Shown: positions 24,695 through 36,110 of the stretch, one piece after another
Position numbering within the stretch: position 1 is the stretch's first letter
Layout: each line of letters opens with the position of its first letter
DNA from: Streptomyces plumbidurans
GTDB lineage: Bacteria; Actinomycetota; Actinomycetes; Streptomycetales; Streptomycetaceae
Direction: 5' to 3'
NCBI RefSeq assembly: GCF_019857225.1
Contig: NZ_JAFJSY010000035.1
Coordinates: forward strand, 1-64,000
DNA: 64,000 nt
Notes under the pieces: generated by a model
Told to the model about the DNA's origin: nothing
Databases searched by the model: none
Seen by the model: the letters and a program-made list of their open reading frames with translations, nothing else
Program-made: the position numbers and the translations under genes

Positions 24695-26017
24695 TCAGTG
24701 TGCGGTGACCAGTTCCTGGCCGGTGCCGACGCGGGTGCCGGTCCTCGGGGTGCGCAGCGCCGCGACGCCGATGAAGACCATGGACGACAGGCCGGCCAGC
24801 GCGAAGGCGGTGAAGCCCCAGTCGCCGTGGCCCGCGGCGAGCAACTGGCCGCCGAGCCACGGGCCGAAGACGGCGCCGAAGCGGCCCATGCCGGAGGTCC
24901 AGCCGACGGCGGTGGCACGGTTGTCCGGGGTGGAGCGGATGGAGACGGTGGCGTAGATCATCGTCTGGGCGCTGTTGAGGAAGACACCGGTGAGGAAGAC
25001 GACGAGGGTGGTGACGCCCATCGGCAGGTGGACGCTGAGGAGATAGACGCCGACGGCGGTCAGCGCGAACCAGATCGCCGAGATGCGCGGGGCGCCGAAG
25101 CGGTCGGACGCCCGGCCCGCGACCAGCATGCCCACGATGCCGCCGAGGTTGAAGACGACGACGAAGGTCAGCGCGCTGGCGAGTTCGTAGCCCTCGGTGC
25201 GCATCAGGGTGGGCAGCCAGGTGGCGACGCCGTAGACGAGGAGCAGGCCGCCGAAGGAGGCCAGCCAGTACAGCAGGGTCTGGATCCACTCGCGGCCGCG
25301 GAAGAGGCCGAGCAGCGCGTCCCAGCGGTCGGCGGCGGTCTTCTTGCCGGTGACGGCGGGCAGTTGGACCTCGTAGCGGGCGGCCAGGGCGTGCGCCTCG
25401 TCGGTGCGGCCCTTGGCGACGAGGAAGCTCAGCGACTCGGGCAGGAGCTTGATCAGCAGCGGGACGAAGGCGAGCGGGACGACGCAGACCCAGAAGGCGG
25501 CGCGCCAACCGACCGGGTCCACCAGCCACTTGGCCACGTACGCCGAGAGGATGCCGCCCGCGTGGTGCGCGGTCATCAGCAGGCCGATGACGAGGGCGCC
25601 GCGGCCGCGCGGCGCGTAGTCGGAGACCATGCTGATGGCGGTGGGCAGCAGCCCCCCGAGGCCGACGCCCGCCAGGGTGCGGCCGAGACCGAAGACGGCG
25701 ACGCCGCCGGAGACCGCGCAGATCCCGGAGGCCAGCGAGAACAGCGTCACGCACCCGATCATCAGCCTCTTGCGGCCGATCCGGTCCGCGACGGTCCCCG
25801 CGGTCAGGGCGCCGACCAGCATGCCGAAGGTGGCGTAGCTGCCCAGGTCGCCCGCCTGGTCGGCGGTGATGCCGAAGGTCCTCGTCTCCAGCAGGTGCGG
25901 CAGCACCGAGCCGTAGATGAACATGTCGAGGCCGTCGAAGAGCACGGCCAGCCAGCACAGACCGACGACCAGAAGGGCCAGCCTGCTGCCGCGGGCGGAT
26001 GGGGCGAGGGGGGACAT
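24695..26017 (-). CDS. MFS aromatic acid:H+ symporter (AAHS family, benzoate/4-hydroxybenzoate type)
   Basis: 440-residue permease with 12 membrane segments. The AAHS family hallmark DGLDMFIYGSVLP is in TM1 (residues ~28-40). GTVADRIGRKRLM is motif A in the TM2-3 loop. A charged cytoplasmic loop (KGRTDEAHALAARYEV) precedes TM7. Family members import benzoate, protocatechuate, gallate or similar acids. The ATG at 26017 has aggaagaac upstream. It is separated from the ring-cleavage operon by a promoter holding a TTGTCAACAA core shared with the gntR promoter, so uptake and degradation are probably co-regulated. Confidence 0.85.
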   Translation of the reverse strand: MSPLAPSARGSRLALLVVGLCWLAVLFDGLDMFIYGSVLPHLLETRTFGITADQAGDLGSYATFGMLVGALTAGTVADRIGRKRLMIGCVTLFSLASGICAVSGGVAVFGLGRTLAGVGLGGLLPTAISMVSDYAPRGRGALVIGLLMTAHHAGGILSAYVAKWLVDPVGWRAAFWVCVVPLAFVPLLIKLLPESLSFLVAKGRTDEAHALAARYEVQLPAVTGKKTAADRWDALLGLFRGREWIQTLLYWLASFGGLLLVYGVATWLPTLMRTEGYELASALTFVVVFNLGGIVGMLVAGRASDRFGAPRISAIWFALTAVGVYLLSVHLPMGVTTLVVFLTGVFLNSAQTMIYATVSIRSTPDNRATAVGWTSGMGRFGAVFGPWLGGQLLAAGHGDWGFTAFALAGLSSMVFIGVAALRTPRTGTRVGTGQELVTAH

Positions 26018-26142: not shown

Positions 26143-27093
26143 CTAGGCGACCGGCGGCGTCCCGTGTGTGTGGAAGGACTCGATGGTCTTCAGGCCCCAG
26201 GCCTGGCCCTTCTTGCGCTCCTGTTCGGTCCAGGTGATCAGGGGCCAGTCCGGGGCGAGGACGAGGCGGGTGAGGGGGTTGCACAGTTCGATGCGGTTGC
26301 CGCCCGGCTCGTAGACGTAGAGGAAGAACGTCTGCTGGATGGCGTGCTTGTGCGGGCCCGTCTCGATGAACACGCCGCTGTCGATGGCGAGATCGGCGGC
26401 GCGCAGGACGTCCTCGCGGGTGTCGGTCGCGAAGGCGATGTGATGCAGCCGGCCCTCGGAGCCGGTCCAGTCCTCCGTGTACACGACGTCGTACGACTTG
26501 TTCGTGTACGTCAGCCAACGCGCCGCGATCCGCCCGGAGTCGAGCCGGATCTGTTCCGTGGCCCGGGCGCCGAGCACCTGTTGCTGGAACTCGGCGTTGG
26601 CGAGCACGTCCGCGGCGAGGAAGTTGATGTGGTCCAGGCGGCGTACGCCCACGCCCCGGTTGGGCTTGGCCTGCGGCTGGTTCTTCAGGGCCGGGCGCAG
26701 TTCCGGCGGTGCCTGGTAGTGCTCGCTCTCCCAGTACAGCGCGTGCTCGTGGCCGTCGGGGTCGGTGGTCAGGTACAGCTTGCCCAGGCCCGGTTCGTCC
26801 TCGGCCCAGGTGCCGCTGCCGCCCGCCGCTTCGACCGCCCGGACGCGGCGCTGCAGTGCCTCCTCGCTGGAGGTGCGCAGGGCGAGCCGGCCGAGGCCGG
26901 GCTGCTCGCGCGCGGTGAGGACCAGGCTGTGGTGCTCGTAGTCGTCGAAGGTCCGCAGGTAGACCGTGTCGCCGTCCTGTCCGTTGACCGTGAGGCCGAG
27001 GAAGTCGGTGAAGAAGGCGACGCTGGCGTCCAGTTCGGGGGTGAACAGCTGGGCATGGCCGACGTGGGCGATGTCGCCGCGCGGCGGGGTCAT
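26143..27093 (-). CDS. VOC-fold extradiol ring-cleavage dioxygenase (catechol 2,3-dioxygenase-like)
   Basis: 316-residue two-domain vicinal-oxygen-chelate dioxygenase. The Fe(II) ligands expected in the C-terminal domain are all visible: His in RRLDHINF, His in RLHHIAFATD and Glu in GGNRIELCNP. The length matches catechol 2,3-dioxygenase (~307). It overlaps the GalD-like gene by 4 nt (ATGA) and ends an operon encoding GalB-, GalC- and GalD-like enzymes, which process the product of gallate 4,5-cleavage. Its substrate may therefore be gallate or a related acid rather than catechol. This would be an unusual, non-LigAB solution, and it is inference from context. Confidence 0.82.
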   Translation of the reverse strand: MTPPRGDIAHVGHAQLFTPELDASVAFFTDFLGLTVNGQDGDTVYLRTFDDYEHHSLVLTAREQPGLGRLALRTSSEEALQRRVRAVEAAGGSGTWAEDEPGLGKLYLTTDPDGHEHALYWESEHYQAPPELRPALKNQPQAKPNRGVGVRRLDHINFLAADVLANAEFQQQVLGARATEQIRLDSGRIAARWLTYTNKSYDVVYTEDWTGSEGRLHHIAFATDTREDVLRAADLAIDSGVFIETGPHKHAIQQTFFLYVYEPGGNRIELCNPLTRLVLAPDWPLITWTEQERKKGQAWGLKTIESFHTHGTPPVA

Positions 27094-28202
27094 CGCTGAC
27101 CTCCTTGGTCCTGCGGGGTGTGCGGGGGCAGGGGTGCCGTGGCGGCGGACCGCGGGAAGACGGTGCCGTCGAAGATCTTGCGGGCGGTGCGCACCACGGC
27201 GGTGCGGCGCGCGGAGGGCAGTTCACCGCTCGGGGCGGTGAGGCTGCTCTCGATGTCCAGGAACCCCGTGGGGTGTTCGATACGGACCCGGTCCTCGTCC
27301 GGGTCGACCTGCGCGAGGTCCGCGCCCACGCTGCCCTCGATCCGCAGCCCGGCGGCCACACTGGCCGCGCCGAGCACGCCGATCGACGTGTGGCAGCGGA
27401 CCGGGATGAAGGTGCGGGTGGTGACCGCGCCGCCGCCTTGGGGCGGGGCGAGCAGCGTCAGTTTGGGCACGGTGGTGCCGGAGACGTCGCCGAGACCCAT
27501 CAGCCGTCCGGCCTCCAGCCGGATCTCGCGCAGCCGGTCGGCGAGCGCGGCGTCCTTCTCCAGTTCCGCGGGCGACTCGTAGCCGGTCACCTTCAAGGAC
27601 GTGGCCGCCATGAGCACGGTCGGCATGCCGTTGTCGACGCAGGTCACGGGCACGCCCTGGATCTCGTCGCGGACATGGCCGGTGGGCAGCAGCGGGTTCG
27701 CGCCGGGCGGGAACTCGATCACCACGGCGGCGGCCGTCCCGGGCACGCCGGAGATCTCCGCGTCCCCGGTGTAGTCGACACGGCCGCCCTGGGTCGGGAA
27801 GGTCGCCGTCGCGTAGTCACCGGTGTTGACCATGCGGATGCGGACGGCAGTGTGCTCCTGCCCGGCCGGGACCAGTCCGCGCTCGACGGCGAAGGGGCCG
27901 ACGCCGGCCAGGAGGTTCCCGCAGTTCTGACGGTCGCTCACCTCGGGCCGGTCGACCACGACTTGGAGGAAGAGATAGTCGACGTCGGCCCGCGGATCGG
28001 CCGAGGACGAGACCACGGCCACCTTGCTGGTGAGCGGGTGCGCACCGCCCAGGCCGTCGATCTGGCGCTCGTCGGGACTGCCCATCACGCGCAGCAACAG
28101 GTCGTCGCGCAGGGCCGGTTCGGCCGGCAGGTCACCGGCGAGGAAGTAGGCACCCTTGGAGGTGCCACCACGCATCAGCAGACAGGGCAGCTCCTCGGTC
28201 AC
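27090..28202 (-). CDS. galD: 4-oxalomesaconate tautomerase-like (PrpF/GalD family)
   Basis: 370-residue PrpF-family isomerase. MRGGTSKGAYF (residues ~10-20) and NCGNLLAGVGPFAVE (residues ~93-107) are the two conserved loops of the active site in this family. GalD converts the keto to the enol form of 4-oxalomesaconate during gallate degradation. Adjacent GalC-like and GalB-like genes make that role more likely than 2-methylaconitate isomerisation (PrpF proper). Both ends overlap neighbours by 4 nt, showing translational coupling. The start is the ATG at 28202. Confidence 0.8.
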   Translation of the reverse strand: MTEELPCLLMRGGTSKGAYFLAGDLPAEPALRDDLLLRVMGSPDERQIDGLGGAHPLTSKVAVVSSSADPRADVDYLFLQVVVDRPEVSDRQNCGNLLAGVGPFAVERGLVPAGQEHTAVRIRMVNTGDYATATFPTQGGRVDYTGDAEISGVPGTAAAVVIEFPPGANPLLPTGHVRDEIQGVPVTCVDNGMPTVLMAATSLKVTGYESPAELEKDAALADRLREIRLEAGRLMGLGDVSGTTVPKLTLLAPPQGGGAVTTRTFIPVRCHTSIGVLGAASVAAGLRIEGSVGADLAQVDPDEDRVRIEHPTGFLDIESSLTAPSGELPSARRTAVVRTARKIFDGTVFPRSAATAPLPPHTPQDQGGQR

Positions 28203-28903
28203 GGCCGCTCCCCCTCGTACTCCTCGAACGTCCGGTACTCGACCCCGAGTTCCTTCAGCTTCTCGCGCAACCCGTAGCGGTCCAGTCCCAGTTGGCCGTC
28301 GAGGAACGCGGCGCGCGACTTGGCCTCCTTGACCTCGCGGGCCTCGGACTTCTCGACCGCCTCCCGGGCGCGTTCACGCGGTACGACGACCACGCCGTCG
28401 TCGTCGGCGAGGATCACGTCGCCGGGGCGGATCACCTGGCCGTCCACGGCGACGGGCACGTTGACGGAGCCCCCGGTGGCCTTGACGGTGCCCTGCGCGG
28501 AGACCGCGCGGGACCAGGCGGCGAAGCCCATCTCGCGCAGCTCCTGGGTGTCCCGGATACCGGCGTTGATGACCAGCCCGCGCACTCCCCGCCTGTGCAG
28601 CGCGGTCGCGAACAGCTCGCCGAACATGCCGTCGGTGGACGGGGAGGTGGTGGTGACGACGAGGAAGTCGCCCTCGCCGCACTGCTCGACGGCCGCGTGG
28701 ATCATGAGGTTGTCGCCGGGCCAGCTCAGGACGGTCACCGCGGTGCCCGCGACGCGTACGCCCTGCTGGATGGGCCGGATCCCGGGGCCCAGCAGTCCCG
28801 TACGGCCCATCGCCTCGCTGACCGTGGCCACGCCGAAGCCGGCCAGCGCCTCGACGTCCTTGGCGTCGGCCTTCGGGGGGTTGGTGACGACGACGCCGCT
28901 CAT
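28199..28903 (-). CDS. galC: 4-carboxy-4-hydroxy-2-oxoadipate / HMG aldolase-like (RraA-fold)
   Basis: 234-residue RraA-like protein of the HMG/CHA aldolase class. It splits 4-carboxy-4-hydroxy-2-oxoadipate into pyruvate and oxaloacetate with a divalent metal. VINAGIRDTQEL carries the conserved G...RD pair, and ILADDDGVVVVPRERA is the typical C-terminal motif. The ATG at 28903 follows aggagctggc and overlaps the upstream stop by 4 nt. The GalB- and GalD-like neighbours support the catabolic aldolase role over RNase E regulation (RraA proper), which Streptomyces lineages generally use differently. Confidence 0.82.
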   Translation of the reverse strand: MSGVVVTNPPKADAKDVEALAGFGVATVSEAMGRTGLLGPGIRPIQQGVRVAGTAVTVLSWPGDNLMIHAAVEQCGEGDFLVVTTTSPSTDGMFGELFATALHRRGVRGLVINAGIRDTQELREMGFAAWSRAVSAQGTVKATGGSVNVPVAVDGQVIRPGDVILADDDGVVVVPRERAREAVEKSEAREVKEAKSRAAFLDGQLGLDRYGLREKLKELGVEYRTFEEYEGERP

Positions 28904-29685
28904 GCCAGCTCCTTCGCGATCTGCGGGTAGGGACGCATGTACGCCTCGGCCATGGTCCGGTGGGCCAGACCGAGGTTCGGTCCGGCGTTGCGCCTGAGCT
29001 GCACACCCCGGCGCACGGCGAGGTCCGTGTAGTAGTCCCACAGGTGCTGCTGGGCGCCGAGGCACTCCATCGCCTTGCGCTTGGTGTCCCAGACCTCGGT
29101 GATGTCGAGCAGCACCTGGGGCGTGAAGCCGCACATCTCGGGCTGGTGCGGCTCGAAGTAGAAGACCGGCGGGGCGCCTATGATGTCGCCCTCGCCCGGG
29201 TAGCCGATCGCCTGGGCGAGGATGCGGGCCTGCAGCGCCATGCGGTGGGCGGCCGGGTGGTCGCCGTTGTAGGGGTCCGCGGCCGGGTGGGTGAGCACGA
29301 CGTCGGGCTGGGTCTCGCGGTGGAGGGCCACCAGCCGGTCGGTCAACTCGGCGCTCTCCACCAGGGGATAGTCACCGGCGTCGAAGAAGCGGACCTCGGC
29401 GCCGAGGGTGGCCGCGGCGCGCTCGGCCTCGTCCCGGCGCAGCGCCTTGATCTCCTCCAGCTTCTTGCCCTCGCGCCACGCCTTGGCGGACTCGCCGCGC
29501 TCGCCGAAGGTCAGACAGGCGATGGTGACCTTCTCCCCGCGGGCGGCGGCCAGGGCGATGGCGCCGCCGGCCCGCCACACGAAGTCCCCGGCGTGCGCGG
29601 TGACGACCAGGGTGGAACGTGACGGGGACCGCCCCGCGCGAGCGCCGTCGGGTGGTGGGGAGGCGGGCGCGTTGGCCTGGGTCAT
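28900..29685 (-). CDS. galB: 4-oxalomesaconate hydratase-like (PIG-L/LmbE fold, GalB family)
   Basis: 261-residue PIG-L-fold protein. The motif TAHAGDFVWRAGGAI (residues ~29-43) replaces the deacetylase AHPDDE and matches the variant I recall for GalB hydratases. HPAADPYNGDHPAAH near residue 135 gives further metal ligands. GalB hydrates 4-oxalomesaconate to 4-carboxy-4-hydroxy-2-oxoadipate. The start is the ATG at 29685 with aaggag 9 nt upstream. It is the first structural gene after the GntR regulator gene (60-bp gap), so it is probably transcribed from the gntR promoter. A mycothiol-type deacetylase function is less likely given the changed motif and the neighbours. Confidence 0.78.
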   Translation of the reverse strand: MTQANAPASPPPDGARAGRSPSRSTLVVTAHAGDFVWRAGGAIALAAARGEKVTIACLTFGERGESAKAWREGKKLEEIKALRRDEAERAAATLGAEVRFFDAGDYPLVESAELTDRLVALHRETQPDVVLTHPAADPYNGDHPAAHRMALQARILAQAIGYPGEGDIIGAPPVFYFEPHQPEMCGFTPQVLLDITEVWDTKRKAMECLGAQQHLWDYYTDLAVRRGVQLRRNAGPNLGLAHRTMAEAYMRPYPQIAKELA

Positions 29686-29745: not shown

Positions 29746-30396
29746 TCAGTCGCGCAGCGCCTCGATCACGCTGGTGAGGTGGGCGCGGACGGTCGTCTCG
29801 GCCGCCTGCGGATCCCTGGCCCTGATCGCCTCGATCATCGCCAGGTGCTCGTTCAGGGACTGCTGCGGACGGCCCGGCCGAAGCGCCAACTGGAAGCGGT
29901 GGCGCACCAGTTGGGCGTTGAGCCGCTCCAGCAGATCCACGGCCGTGCGCTGCCCCGACAGGTCCCGGACCTTGGCGTGCAGCTGCTGGTTGAGCTCGGA
30001 GTAGGTCACCGGCTCACCGTCGGCCACGGCCTTGGTCATCGCCGTGCCCAGTTCGGTCAGCTCGGCGAGCTGCTCGTCGCCGGCCAGGGTGGCCGCCTTC
30101 GCCGCGCACAGCCCTTCGAGGACCATGCGGCACTCGGTGATGGCGACCGCCTCCTCGACGGTCACCACCCGCACCCGCGAGCCGCGGTTGCGGATCCGCT
30201 CGACGAGGCCCTGGGCCTCCAGATCGATGAGTGCCGCCCGGATGCTGGCCCGTGTCACACCGAACTGCTCGGCGAGTTCGTTCTCCACCAGCCGCTGCGC
30301 CGGTGCCATCTCGCCGTGCAGGATCGCCTGCCGCAGCTGCGTGAACGCATGCTGTTTGGCCTGCTCTCCGGTGCTCGGACGGGCTTGGTTCGGCAT
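29746..30396 (-). CDS. GntR-family regulator (FadR subfamily, FCD domain)
   Basis: 216-residue regulator. The winged HTH (residues ~15-80) contains LVENELAEQFGVTRASIRAALIDLEAQGLVE. The FCD ligand-binding helical domain follows (residues ~90-210). FCD regulators typically sense carboxylic acids of the pathway they control. The ATG at 30396 has gggaggg upstream. Its promoter carries a 24-bp near-perfect palindrome at 30442-30465 whose core recurs upstream of the aromatic MFS gene. It is therefore likely an autoregulated repressor of the gal-like operon and the transporter. Confidence 0.88.
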   Translation of the reverse strand: MPNQARPSTGEQAKQHAFTQLRQAILHGEMAPAQRLVENELAEQFGVTRASIRAALIDLEAQGLVERIRNRGSRVRVVTVEEAVAITECRMVLEGLCAAKAATLAGDEQLAELTELGTAMTKAVADGEPVTYSELNQQLHAKVRDLSGQRTAVDLLERLNAQLVRHRFQLALRPGRPQQSLNEHLAMIEAIRARDPQAAETTVRAHLTSVIEALRD

Positions 30397-30441: not shown

Positions 30442-30465
30442 GACAAGATTGTCAACAATTTTGTC
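30442..30465. promoter_or_regulatory. Candidate operator of the FCD-GntR regulator
   Basis: Arms gacaagattgt and acaattttgtc around a central CA form an inverted repeat matching at 10 of 11 positions. The core ttgtcaacaa (30449-30458) also lies at 26083-26092. Read on the minus strand it contains TTGACA, so binding would overlap a -35 element of the gntR-gal operon. Confidence 0.65.
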
Positions 30466-30509
30466 CGCTGTATTGCGGGCACACTGGCGGGCAAAGGGCA
30501 GGGGACAGT

Positions 30510-30604
30510 GGGCAGAGGGCAGAGAGCAGAGGGCAGAGAGCAGAGGGCAGGGGGCAGGGGGCAGGGGGCAGGCTGCCGGGAAGCGCGGGTCAGGCTGCCG
30601 GGAA
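30510..30604. repeat. Heptad microsatellite and 22-bp repeat at the maleylacetate reductase 3' end
   Basis: About nine copies of a 7-bp unit (gggcaga, then gggcagg) run from 30510 to 30572. Next to it caggctgccgggaa is repeated at 30569 and 30591 (22-bp period). The second copy holds the last four codons and stop of the maleylacetate reductase gene, so the first is a duplicate of the gene's tail just past the stop. Confidence 0.85.
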
Positions 30605-31672
30605 CTCCGGCGGGCCGCCCTCGTACGCCGCCCGCAGCACGGCGAGCGCGTCCGCCGCCGAGACCGCGCGCGGATTGGCGTACGCCTGGCCCGCCGTCTG
30701 TGCGGCGGCCTCCGTCAAGTCGGCTTCCTTCAGGCCCAGTTCGGCCAGGCTGCGCGGGGCACCGAGCCGTTCGGCCAGGTCCTTGAGGGCGCGCGGGGCG
30801 TCCGTCGTGTCCAGGGCGCGGGCCAGGGCGGCGGAGGCGTCCGGGACCGCTGGCGCGTTGTAGGCGAGGGAGTAGGGCAGGACCACCGTGTGCGTCTCGG
30901 CGTGCGGCAGACCGAAGGTGCCGCCCAGGACGTGGCACAGCTTGTGGTGCAGGCCCATGGTGGTGGCGCCGAGGCAGGAGCCGCACAGCCAGGCGCCGTA
31001 CAGGGCGCGCCCGCGGGCCTCCTTCGACTCCGGGTCGGCGGCCACCGCGGGCAGGGCGCGCGCCATGGCCCGTACGCCCTCCTCGGCCATCAGCTCGATC
31101 AGGGGCGAGGTGTCGGGGGCGTACAGCCCCTCGACGGCGTGGGCGATCGCATTGATGCCGCTGGTGACGGAGAGCGGCACCGGCAGGGAAAGCGTGAGGT
31201 CGGGGTCGTAGACCACGCTGCGCGGCAGGACCACGGGGTCGCGGCCGGTGCGTTTGACGCCGTGCTCGGTCAGGCCCCAGACCGGGGTCATCTCCGAGCC
31301 GGCGTAGGTGGAGGGCACCGCCATCAGCGACAGGCCGGTGCGCAGGGCTACTGCCTTGCCGAGTCCGATCGAGGAGCCGCCGCCGACCGCCACGCAGCCG
31401 TCGGCGCCCGCCGCGCGGGCCACCTCGACGGCGCGGTCGACCGTCTCGACGGGGACGTGCATCCGGGCGCCGTCGTGCAGGCCCACGCAGGCGGGGCCGA
31501 GCGCGTCGGCGACCGCGCGTGCGGTGGCCGTGCCCCGGCTGCCGCAGACCACCAGCAGCCGGCGCAGTCCGAGCGCGGCGGCCTCGCCGGGGGTCGCGTT
31601 GGTGGCGGCGCCGGAGCGGAAGACGACCCGGACGGGCCGGGACTGGTAGGAGAAGTCGAGCACGTCCTTCAC
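30590..31672 (-). CDS. Maleylacetate reductase
   Basis: 360-residue iron-containing-alcohol-dehydrogenase-fold enzyme reducing maleylacetate to 3-oxoadipate with NAD(P)H. VGGGSSIGLGKAVAL (residues ~95-110) is the nucleotide loop. PSTYAGSEMTPVWG is the hallmark of maleylacetate reductases, and HHKLCHVLGGTFGLPHAETH contains the metal-site histidines. The GTG at 31672 overlaps the stop of the hydroxyquinol dioxygenase gene (GTGA). The pair forms the standard lower hydroxyquinol pathway. The 3' end of the gene is duplicated just downstream. Confidence 0.9.
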   Translation of the reverse strand: MKDVLDFSYQSRPVRVVFRSGAATNATPGEAAALGLRRLLVVCGSRGTATARAVADALGPACVGLHDGARMHVPVETVDRAVEVARAAGADGCVAVGGGSSIGLGKAVALRTGLSLMAVPSTYAGSEMTPVWGLTEHGVKRTGRDPVVLPRSVVYDPDLTLSLPVPLSVTSGINAIAHAVEGLYAPDTSPLIELMAEEGVRAMARALPAVAADPESKEARGRALYGAWLCGSCLGATTMGLHHKLCHVLGGTFGLPHAETHTVVLPYSLAYNAPAVPDASAALARALDTTDAPRALKDLAERLGAPRSLAELGLKEADLTEAAAQTAGQAYANPRAVSAADALAVLRAAYEGGPPEFPAA

Positions 31673-32553
31673 GACCGCTCCAGTACGAGGTCGAAGCGGG
31701 CGTGCCGGAACGGGTTCGCGACGCCGAACTCCTGCGCGAGTGCGGGATCGTCCGTCTCGGCGAACTCCTGCACCAGGCTCGGCTTGACCGCGAACACGGC
31801 GTCGGAGTCCAGGTAGTCACTGCCCGCGACGAAGATGTGCGTGGTCACCGGGGTGTGCCCGGCGGCCGTGGCGATGAAGTGGACGTGGGCCGGGCGGTAG
31901 GGGTGGCGGCCGGTCGCGCGCAGCAGTGCGCCCACCGGGCCGTCCGTCGGGATCGGGTACGGGCTCGGCACACAGGTGCGGAACCAGAAGCGGCCCTCGG
32001 CGTCCGCGGTGAACAGTCCGCGTCCGTTGCCCGGTGGCTGCACGTCCGGGCGCTGGACGTCGTAGAAGCCGTTGCCGTCGGCCTGCCAGACGTCGAGGAG
32101 CGCGCCCGGCAGCGGTGTTCCGTCGCGGGACAGCACCCGGCCGCTGACCACGCAGGGCTCGCCGCCGCCCACCAGGTCGATGTTCGCGCCGAGTTCGCGG
32201 GCCGGGGACTCGGTCATGTGGAAGGGGCCGAGGACCGTCGACTCGGTCGCGCCCGGCGCGCGGTCGCCGTTGATCGTCTCGACCAGCATGGACAGGCCCA
32301 GCACGTCGGACAGGAGGATGAACTCCTGCCGGGTGTCCGTGCAGGTCTGCCCGGTCGCGGTCAGGAAGGCGACGGCCCGCTCCCACTCCTCCTGCGTCAG
32401 CCGCGTCTCGCGCGCGAAGGCGTGCAGATGGCGGATGAGCCCGGAGAGCAGCTCGCGCAGGCGCGGGTCGGCGGCGCCGGCCAGGCTGTTCACCGCTTCG
32501 TCGGTGACGGTCGTGTCCCCGGCGTCGGTGGCGTCTGTGGCGTCGGTGGTCAT
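31669..32553 (-). CDS. Hydroxyquinol 1,2-dioxygenase (intradiol)
   Basis: 294-residue intradiol dioxygenase that opens 1,2,4-trihydroxybenzene to maleylacetate. The Fe(III) ligands (two Tyr, two His) fit the Tyr in SPYPIPTDGPVG and the Tyr/His/His of HPYRPAHVHF. LLDVWQADGNGFYDVQ is conserved in catechol and hydroxyquinol dioxygenases, and the N-terminal dimerisation helices are present. The first residues contain a short ATD repeat. The ATG at 32553 follows gggagccgac. It is coupled to the maleylacetate reductase gene downstream. No gene making hydroxyquinol (for example a resorcinol or 4-hydroxysalicylate hydroxylase) is seen nearby. Confidence 0.9.
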   Translation of the reverse strand: MTTDATDATDAGDTTVTDEAVNSLAGAADPRLRELLSGLIRHLHAFARETRLTQEEWERAVAFLTATGQTCTDTRQEFILLSDVLGLSMLVETINGDRAPGATESTVLGPFHMTESPARELGANIDLVGGGEPCVVSGRVLSRDGTPLPGALLDVWQADGNGFYDVQRPDVQPPGNGRGLFTADAEGRFWFRTCVPSPYPIPTDGPVGALLRATGRHPYRPAHVHFIATAAGHTPVTTHIFVAGSDYLDSDAVFAVKPSLVQEFAETDDPALAQEFGVANPFRHARFDLVLERS

Positions 32554-32579
32554 GTCGGCTCCCTTCCCGGGTGCGCGGT

Positions 32580-33161
32580 TCAACCGAACCAGACGATGAG
32601 CCGTACGTGCTCGTCGCCCCGCTCGGCCGCGAGGTCCCGCATGGCGCTCCACACCTCCGCCCAGCATCCCTCGTCCGGCGGGGCGAGCATCCGGGCGGTC
32701 AGGACCACCGGCCGGTACACCGCGCCGTCCAGGTGCACCTCGGTGCCGGGCGGCCACTCCGGCGGCGCCAGGTGCAAGCCTCCCCCGTAGGCCGCGCCGG
32801 CGGCCTCGCGCAGGGTGGGCGTCACCCGTACCAGGTGCTCTCCCTCGGGATCGGACCGGTGCGTCCAGTACCAGGCGGGCCGCGAGGCGAGCGGCTCGTC
32901 CCAGTCGACCGCGCCGGCCTCGGCCCAGGTGACATGCGTGTGGTTGTGCTGGTGATCGCCGAGCGCATGTTCCCGTACCGGATCCGAGACGTCGTCCGGC
33001 AGTCCGCGGTCGGCGAACAGCGGGCGCTCCACGTCTCCCGTCCCGCGCACGCCGAACAGACACTCCCAGGCGACGTAGTCCCGGGGCGGCCGGAAGTCGA
33101 GCAGGTCGAACTCCATCTGCCAGCGTCCGTCGGCCGAGCGACTTTCGATGGCTCCATCCAT
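32580..33161 (-). CDS. Uncharacterised protein encoded upstream of hydroxyquinol dioxygenase
   Basis: 193 residues, family not recognised. No signal peptide or membrane segment. The protein is acidic and Trp/His-rich (DHQHNHTHVTW near residue 85; WYWTH near 107), which suggests a soluble beta-rich, possibly metal-binding fold. The start is probably ATG 33161, with GTG 33173 as an alternative; neither has a strong SD. The stop is 26 bp from the dioxygenase start on the same strand, so it may be co-transcribed and serve the hydroxyquinol pathway. The palindrome ggttcaaccgaacc at 32577-32590 overlaps its stop. Confidence 0.6.
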   Translation of the reverse strand: MDGAIESRSADGRWQMEFDLLDFRPPRDYVAWECLFGVRGTGDVERPLFADRGLPDDVSDPVREHALGDHQHNHTHVTWAEAGAVDWDEPLASRPAWYWTHRSDPEGEHLVRVTPTLREAAGAAYGGGLHLAPPEWPPGTEVHLDGAVYRPVVLTARMLAPPDEGCWAEVWSAMRDLAAERGDEHVRLIVWFG

Positions 33162-34831: not shown

Positions 34832-34936
34832 TGGACCGTTCCATGAGCCGGCCGGGCTTGTCAAAGGGTCCGGGGAGGGTTGACAGCTGCGGAATCGGGC
34901 CTTCAGGGTGGCGTGGACAGGTTGTGGACCGGTCCA
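34832..34936. promoter_or_regulatory. Pair of LacI-type operators in the divergent promoter
   Basis: TGGACCGTTCCA at 34832-34843 (one mismatched base pair) and TGGACCGGTCCA at 34925-34936 (perfect 12-bp palindrome) have centres 93 bp apart. The first overlaps the lacI 5' leader and the second precedes the dehydrogenase RBS (agagggg at 34939-34945). Looping repression of both genes is plausible. Confidence 0.7.
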
Positions 34937-34949
34937 AAGAGGGGCTGTC

Positions 34950-36110
34950 ATGGTGGATTCGCTCGGTGTCGCCGTCGTCGGGTTCGGCTGGATGGGCCGG
35001 GTGCACACCCAGGCGTACGCCCGCCTCCTGCACCACTACCCGCGACTGGGGCTGCGCCCGCAGCTGGTGACCGTCGCCGAGGAGGTGCCGGGCCGGGCCG
35101 AGGAGGCCGCCGCGCAGTTCGGCTTCGCCTCCACCACTCGCGACTGGCGCGAGGTCGCGAAGGACCCGCGCGTGCAGGCGGTGTCCATCACGGCCCCGAA
35201 CTTCCTGCACCGTGAGATCGGCGTCGCGATGGCCGAGGCGGGCAAGCACATCTGGATCGAGAAGCCGGTCGGGCTGAGCACGGCGGACGCGCGGGCGGTG
35301 GCCGACGCGGTCGCCGGGGCGGGCGTCCAGGGCGCCGTCGGCTTCAACTACCGCAACGCGCCCGCCGTCGAGACGGCCCGCGACCTCATCTCCTCGGGCG
35401 CGATCGGCCGGGTCACCCACATCCGCATCCGCCTGTTCAGCGACTACGCCGCCCACCCCGAGGGCGCCCTGACCTGGCGCTACGAGAAGCAGCGCGGCGG
35501 CAGCGGCGTACTGGGCGACCTCGCCTCGCACGGCGCGGACCTCGCCCGCTTCCTGCTCGGCGACATCGAGTCCCTGACGGCCGACACGGCCGTGTTCATC
35601 CCCGAGCGGGCCCGCCCCACCGGCGCCACGGCGGGCCACACCCGCGCCACCGGCGGCGAGCTGGGCCCGGTCGAGAACGAGGACTACGTGAACTGCCTGC
35701 TGCGCTTCGCCTCCGGCGCCCGCGGCGTCCTGGAGGCCTGCCGGGTCTCGGTCGGCGAGCAGAACAACTACGGCTTCGAGGTGCACGGCACCGAGGGCGC
35801 CGTCTTCTGGGACTTCCGCCGGATGAACGAACTCGGAGTCAGCCGCGGCACGGGCTACCAGGACCAGCCGGTCAGCACGGTGTACGTCGGCCCGGGCGCG
35901 GGCGAGTTCGGCGCGTTCCAGCCGGGCGCGGCGAACGCCATGGGCTACGACGACCTGAAGGTGATCGAGGCCGAGCGCTTCGTACGCTCGATCGCGGAGA
36001 GCACACCGTACGGCGCCACCCTGCGGGACGCCGTGCACAGTGCCGCCGCGGTGGAGGCGATGGTGCGATCGGCCGAGAGCGGCGCCTGGGTCAACGTCCC
36101 GGGGGCGTGA
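34950..36110 (+). CDS. Gfo/Idh/MocA-family oxidoreductase
   Basis: 386-residue NAD(P)-dependent sugar/cyclitol dehydrogenase. The Rossmann motif GFGWMGRVHTQAY is near residue 11, catalytic Lys in EKPVGLS, and the Asp/His pair in GDLASHGADLARFLLG. The ATG at 34950 is set by agagggg upstream. It is divergent from and probably regulated by the LacI protein. Its last 39 codons and stop are the first unit of a 139-bp tandem repeat continuing into the intergenic space. The substrate is unknown; inositols or their oxidised derivatives are the best guess from neighbouring genes. Confidence 0.82.
   Translation: MVDSLGVAVVGFGWMGRVHTQAYARLLHHYPRLGLRPQLVTVAEEVPGRAEEAAAQFGFASTTRDWREVAKDPRVQAVSITAPNFLHREIGVAMAEAGKHIWIEKPVGLSTADARAVADAVAGAGVQGAVGFNYRNAPAVETARDLISSGAIGRVTHIRIRLFSDYAAHPEGALTWRYEKQRGGSGVLGDLASHGADLARFLLGDIESLTADTAVFIPERARPTGATAGHTRATGGELGPVENEDYVNCLLRFASGARGVLEACRVSVGEQNNYGFEVHGTEGAVFWDFRRMNELGVSRGTGYQDQPVSTVYVGPGAGEFGAFQPGAANAMGYDDLKVIEAERFVRSIAESTPYGATLRDAVHSAAAVEAMVRSAESGAWVNVPGA

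Follow-up and report, generated by a model that had tools for sequence, protein, structure and literature searches.

The window analysed here, a stretch of 64,000 nucleotides from the 8.64 Mb genome of Streptomyces plumbidurans (contig NZ_JAFJSY010000035.1, positions 1 to 64,000), carries on its minus strand a compact operon that probably encodes gallate degradation, with a VOC-fold (type I) extradiol dioxygenase in place of the LigB-fold ring-cleaving enzyme GalA. A GntR gene marks the upstream end and is followed by galB, galC, galD and the VOC dioxygenase gene, downstream of which lies a transporter gene of the aromatic acid type. The three joints between galB and the VOC gene each consist of a 4-nt overlap (28900-28903, 28199-28202 and 27090-27093), as an earlier note made from the letters of this DNA had stated. 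From upstream to downstream, the features are the following.

30443-30464, no strand assigned: probable operator, a 22-bp palindrome that precedes the GntR gene (exact match)
29746-30396, minus strand: GntR/FCD-family regulator, 216 aa, probable operon regulator (Pfam GntR and FCD)
28900-29685, minus strand: galB, PIG-L-family 4-oxalomesaconate hydratase, 261 aa (PDB 5cgz; PIG-L)
28199-28903, minus strand: galC, GalC aldolase (NF006731; PDB 3noj)
27090-28202, minus strand: galD, 4-oxalomesaconate tautomerase, 370 aa (NF033377; PDB 6p3j)
26143-27093, minus strand: VOC-fold (type I) extradiol dioxygenase, proposed gallate 4,5-dioxygenase, 316 aa (TIGR03211, structure model, metal ligands)
24695-26017, minus strand: MFS transporter of the aromatic acid/H+ symport (AAHS) type, 440 aa, probable uptake gene (TIGR00895)

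By homology, the three enzymes encoded ahead of the dioxygenase are GalB, GalC and GalD, in agreement with the gene calls of the earlier note. GalD exceeds the cut-off of NF033377 (492.5 bits against 440), matches the (4E)-oxalomesaconate isomerase 6p3j in the PDB and is the sole copy in the genome above that cut-off. GalC scores 329.9 bits with NF006731 (cut-off 179), has 3noj as its PDB match and stays under the cut-off of TIGR02798 (292.8 against 304.5). No NCBIfam model exceeds its cut-off for GalB, which Pfam assigns to PIG-L; among solved structures, the 4-oxalmesaconate hydratase 5cgz is closest to it (E 2.2e-78). The top NCBIfam match of the transporter, TIGR00895, lies below its cut-off (288.4 bits against 418.55). 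What is missing from this set of gallate genes is a ring cleaver of the LigB superfamily such as GalA or DesB. A search of the whole genome with PF02900 returned a single LigB-family protein, closest to 4,5-DOPA dioxygenases and YgiD, and no dioxygenase of the LigAB/GalA type, so that the lack of LigAB pointed out earlier holds genome-wide.

The arrangement is conserved within Actinomycetota. We fetched 80 loci, the best of at least 573 confirmed ones, of which four are truncated upstream and 76 are usable. The order galB-galC-galD-VOC is found in 67 of the 76, which rules out a chance layout; six others lack galB only, one has galD only, one lacks galD, and in a Nocardioides metagenome-assembled genome galD, ligJ, galC and ligI are spread further upstream of the VOC gene. 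A GntR gene lies near 71 of the usable loci and the transporter gene near 44. When the neighbours in all 80 loci were clustered, solely VOC, galB, galC, galD, GntR and AAHS were present in most of them. Next in frequency comes a cluster of Gfo/Idh-type proteins, present in 24 loci, every one of them from Streptomyces. It has a member in the window (34908-36110) that the LigC query did not match. Tannase-family genes are present in 6 of the 80 loci, and the queries used gave no LigAB-type match in any of them.

The linkage recurs on plasmids outside this phylum, for which 18 hand-chosen loci encoding VOC proteins of at least 50% identity were opened (one of them, L151, was reached through GalB). 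In 12 of these, galB, an aldolase gene and galD are nearby, and nine of the 12, all alphaproteobacterial, show the order galB-VOC-galC-galD; one further locus has an aldolase gene, galD and ligJ. The Agrobacterium operon of this order is directly followed by a tannase gene. Pantoea piersonii carries galBCD and a transporter gene with the VOC gene, while P. oryzihabitans carries galBCD and a transporter gene with GalA, as if one ring cleaver had been swapped for the other. Pantoea sp. At-9b has its VOC gene on one plasmid and galBCD on another (L202, L155).

The VOC protein itself is 96% identical to its homologue in Streptomyces spinosisporus and has the two VOC domains and the 2-His-1-Glu ligand set of a type I extradiol dioxygenase. 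His155, His218 and Glu269 align with the iron-binding residues of homoprotocatechuate 2,3-dioxygenase (HPCD). None of the three varies in either of two alignments (33 of 33 and 11 of 11 rows), which bears out the full iron ligand set read from the sequence in the earlier note. Domain number and ligands are shared with HPCD of Brevibacterium fuscum, but identity to that enzyme is 26-30%, and its His200, a second-sphere catalytic residue, aligns with Tyr201. This tyrosine is found in all 27 rows of the galBCD type (a label also given to a few rows whose gene set is incomplete, namely L098, L116, L126 and L140), in 6 of 7 rows from a second, DUF6282-containing type of cassette described below and in 2 of 4 other close rows, whereas all three distant rows have His. 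Substitutions at His200 change the chemistry of HPCD, and according to PDB titles this residue has often been varied. A structure model built from the 33 aligned rows (pLDDT 84.5; a poor single-sequence prediction with pLDDT 43.6 was left unused) places the protein closest to two type I extradiol enzymes, AphC (7q2a, TM 0.87) and 3lm4 from RHA1 (TM 0.87-0.88 and 41-42% identity for the pair), which have the same metal ligands. AphC, which was solved with 4-ethylcatechol, differs in having His in the place of Tyr201. The closest solved sequence, PDB 9wgj (364 bits, deposited as catechol 1,2-dioxygenase), has Tyr at this position and was not among the Foldseek matches of the model. In public annotation, members of this VOC group are named bphC or catechol 2,3-dioxygenase, even where the gene lies between galB and galC (L211:6989-7954; L055, L056, L058).

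Gene co-occurrence was followed in 101 Streptomyces genomes, of which 24 encode a VOC protein of at least 76% identity (hereafter VOC-positive) and two more encode one at 40-45%. All 20 genomes with galB are VOC-positive. The gene for 2-pyrone-4,6-dicarboxylate (PDC) hydrolase, ligI, is present in 19 genomes, namely 8 of the 24 VOC-positive ones and 11 of the 77 others; two of the 16 VOC-positive genomes without it are less than 80% complete. The four VOC-positive genomes that lack galB (G014, G052, G053, G055) all have ligI, compared with 4 of the 20 that have galB (70/10626 = 0.0066, computed by hand for a contrast chosen post hoc among related genomes). In three of the four (G052, G053, G055), ligI adjoins ligJ, which encodes the other 4-oxalomesaconate hydratase. 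Among VOC-negative genomes, the module includes the aldolase gene ligK in all 6 in which ligI lies apart from LigB; among the ligI modules of the 8 VOC-positive genomes it does so in 1, that of G052, whose VOC operon lacks galC. Such exchanges of hydratase (galB for ligJ) and aldolase (galC for ligK) would be expected if the product of the VOC enzyme is 4-oxalomesaconate (OMA).

The linkage to galBCD in two phyla, the swap with GalA in Pantoea, the tannase neighbours, the galB/ligJ pattern and the failure to find LigAB or LigC in this genome together suggest that the VOC enzyme makes OMA, and gallate would be the plainest substrate for doing so. Substrate, product, cleavage position and operon regulation are inferred. 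We put the probability of a gallate operon with GalA replaced by a VOC-fold gallate 4,5-dioxygenase at about 0.74, in support of the replacement that the earlier note had proposed. The transporter would import gallate, which would attach to the Fe(II) of the VOC enzyme by a pair of adjacent hydroxyls and be cleaved between C4 and C5 to give OMA. GalD would then tautomerise OMA, GalB would hydrate the tautomer, and GalC would split the hydrated product into pyruvate and oxaloacetate. A tannase/feruloyl-esterase-family gene (344 bits) is found elsewhere in the genome.

Some observations weigh against this assignment. Five of the 18 plasmid loci have no link to galD: the VOC gene lies beside LigAB in Roseomonas, with galB and galC only in Thermus and beside ligJ in Methylobacterium, and none of these genes is in the flank in Pantoea At-9b and Chimaeribacter. 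Of nine plasmid loci reached through GalB, one has a VOC gene and another a gene annotated as GalA; LigAB is present in two, and no ring cleaver was recognised in the opened stretch of the remaining five, so that GalB alone does not predict a VOC gene. Genome G014 lacks both galB and galC, and ligJ was not found in its fetched stretch. The presence of ligI and ligJ in the S. plumbidurans genome, on contig C68 and away from the operon, leaves other routes to OMA open, and the VOC protein narrowly passes the catechol 2,3-dioxygenase equivalog TIGR03211 (324.1 bits against 320.2). Together with the catechol dioxygenase names of close PDB chains, this last score would fit an ordinary catechol 2,3-dioxygenase that sits in the operon by happenstance. 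Such an enzyme would be a highly improbable partner for genes to which it is linked in two phyla: GalB, GalC and GalD are not known to act on catechol cleavage products, and clustering in the 80 loci revealed no lower-pathway genes of catechol meta-cleavage as conserved neighbours. The tyrosine in place of the histidine of AphC and HPCD also speaks against it, and we reject this explanation.

The ligI and ligJ genes lend some weight to two other substrates. Protocatechuate could be cleaved at the 4,5 position and its semialdehyde converted to OMA by a dehydrogenase and LigI. The earlier note had considered this unlikely since neither LigC nor LigI is next to the operon, which is true of the neighbourhood but fails for LigI at the genome level, and absence beside the operon therefore does not exclude the route. 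Related VOC genes also occur in galB-galC cassettes that lack galD, the one in Thermus near a 4-hydroxybenzoate monooxygenase gene. However, a single LigC query found no convincing LigC in the genome (best match 38% over 140 residues, 66 bits, compared with 71% in a LigAB-bearing Streptomyces), LigAB is absent, contig C137 carries adjacent genes for intradiol dioxygenases that are read as pcaHG, which encode protocatechuate 3,4-dioxygenase, galD is part of the operon, and most VOC-positive Streptomyces lack ligI. Protocatechuate cleavage is hence judged unlikely. Alternatively, the main substrate could be 3-O-methylgallate derived from syringate, with a product that reaches OMA from PDC or 4-carboxy-2-hydroxy-6-methoxy-6-oxohexa-2,4-dienoate (CHMOD) by LigI or an esterase. 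Here, too, the presence of ligI and ligJ is in favour, ligI lies near the VOC gene in the Nocardioides genome and on an Agrobacterium plasmid, and substrates overlap among other cleavers of gallate and 3-O-methylgallate as described in PMC6888825 and PMC12481942. The 16 VOC-positive Streptomyces without ligI and the tannases neighbouring several loci argue against it, and neighbour clustering in the 80 loci showed no conserved demethylase or esterase gene. We regard this possibility as improbable, though slightly less so than protocatechuate. In Acinetobacter and Pseudomonas, PcaHG is described as converting gallate to PDC (PMC12481942), and part of the gallate flux in S. plumbidurans might for this reason also run through PDC, LigI and LigJ.

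In Streptomyces, ligJ and ligI form a module with an MFS gene of the aromatic acid type (L187-L192; in S. plumbidurans itself L177:8340-11696), which in VOC-negative genomes additionally has ligK. No dioxygenase or ligC match was present in the fetched stretches, and the module looks like a stand-alone unit for uptake and breakdown of PDC.

Transcription of the gallate operon would be controlled by the GntR/FCD protein from the palindrome at 30443-30464. This palindrome is exact over 22 bp (0 expected), and 50 of 68 loci carry its core TTGTNNACAA upstream of GntR, compared with 0.04 expected from shuffling. A shortened form occurs at one other site in the genome, with one mismatch, and searches of the ligJ/ligI and tannase stretches of the genome gave no copy of the palindrome. 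It is a probable operator, and the GntR protein is probably the regulator of the operon; a promoter and terminator scan returned nothing. Just upstream, positions 30590-33063 of the window contain what we read as a maleylacetate reductase-like iron-containing dehydrogenase gene and a hydroxyquinol 1,2-dioxygenase-like intradiol dioxygenase gene. The reductase-like gene lies near the operon in few of the 80 loci and is not a conserved partner. A degenerate CT-rich repeat (CCCTGCCCTCTGCTCTCTGCC-like, 30480-30589) separates it from the GntR promoter region.

A second cassette with related VOC genes, DUF6282-galB-galC-VOC-DUF1932, varies in gene order and lacks galD. It is found on a Thermus oshimai plasmid (L056:6965-11631) and in the same phylum at L157-L161 and L163, and it possibly serves a protocatechuate-type route. 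When 41 VOC proteins were placed in a tree, a single change sufficed for each of the two labels, galBCD-type and DUF6282-type, although the branch between them has weak support (75/84; recovered in 73% of 200 bootstrap trees). Genes for DUF1932 proteins, which resemble 6-phosphogluconate dehydrogenase, recur near galBCD whether or not the ring cleaver is a VOC enzyme (L055, L057, L059, L151, L155, L203-L206, L209). Since such a gene also accompanies GalA in P. oryzihabitans and galBCD in Pantoea At-9b, we do not conclude that DUF1932 proteins substitute for LigC. Perhaps 4,5-cleavage of ring-carboxylated catechols was invented a second time in this VOC lineage, which mostly has Tyr for His, is spread over Actinomycetota, Pseudomonadota and Deinococcota, and would act on gallate where galD is present and on a protocatechuate-type acid in the second cassette, with DUF6282 and DUF1932 proteins as new stand-ins for lactonase and dehydrogenase. 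We consider this broader idea tentative and rather doubtful.

In established pathways, gallate is converted to OMA by enzymes of the LigB superfamily, followed by GalD, GalB and GalC (PMC10512348, PMC12314914, PMC6888825). In a 2025 survey of routes for syringate and gallate, desB, ligAB and galA were the only genes scored as gallate ring cleavers (PMC12314914), and a review, in its section on type I extradiol dioxygenases, lists catechol, homoprotocatechuate, 2,3-dihydroxybenzoate and further compounds "among others", and not gallate (PMC4250580). In Aspergillus niger, a strain with 17 deletions among candidates from PF00775, PF02900 and PF04444 still grew on gallic acid; the candidates described there include no VOC enzyme, and this work does not serve as a precedent (PMC10512348). 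No report of a VOC gallate dioxygenase was found in the open-access literature, to the extent that its text was accessible. If enzymes of this VOC group do cleave gallate, the known range of gallate degraders would extend to about a quarter of the Streptomyces in the sample (24 of 101) and to various rhizobia. Several proteins that now bear the name catechol 2,3-dioxygenase would then be wrongly named, and the change from His to Tyr would offer a natural test of the role of the catalytic histidine in extradiol enzymes.

The operon thus probably encodes a gallate pathway with already known downstream Gal steps and a non-orthologous, VOC-fold ring cleaver. With the protocatechuate 4,5-cleavage cluster of Pseudarthrobacter Sphe3 (ligJ, ligK, ligI, a fused LigAB and a Gfo/Idh gene) it would share the steps from OMA to pyruvate, but the LigB-fold dioxygenase and the Gfo/Idh gene taken as ligC in that cluster have no counterpart in the Streptomyces operon. 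With the gal pathway of Pseudomonas putida KT2440 it has in common homologues of GalB, GalC and GalD, a transporter of the aromatic acid type and OMA as the expected intermediate, at least as that pathway is described in PMC12314914 and PMC10512348. Where P. putida employs GalA of the LigB superfamily and GalR, the Streptomyces operon has the VOC-fold enzyme and a GntR regulator.

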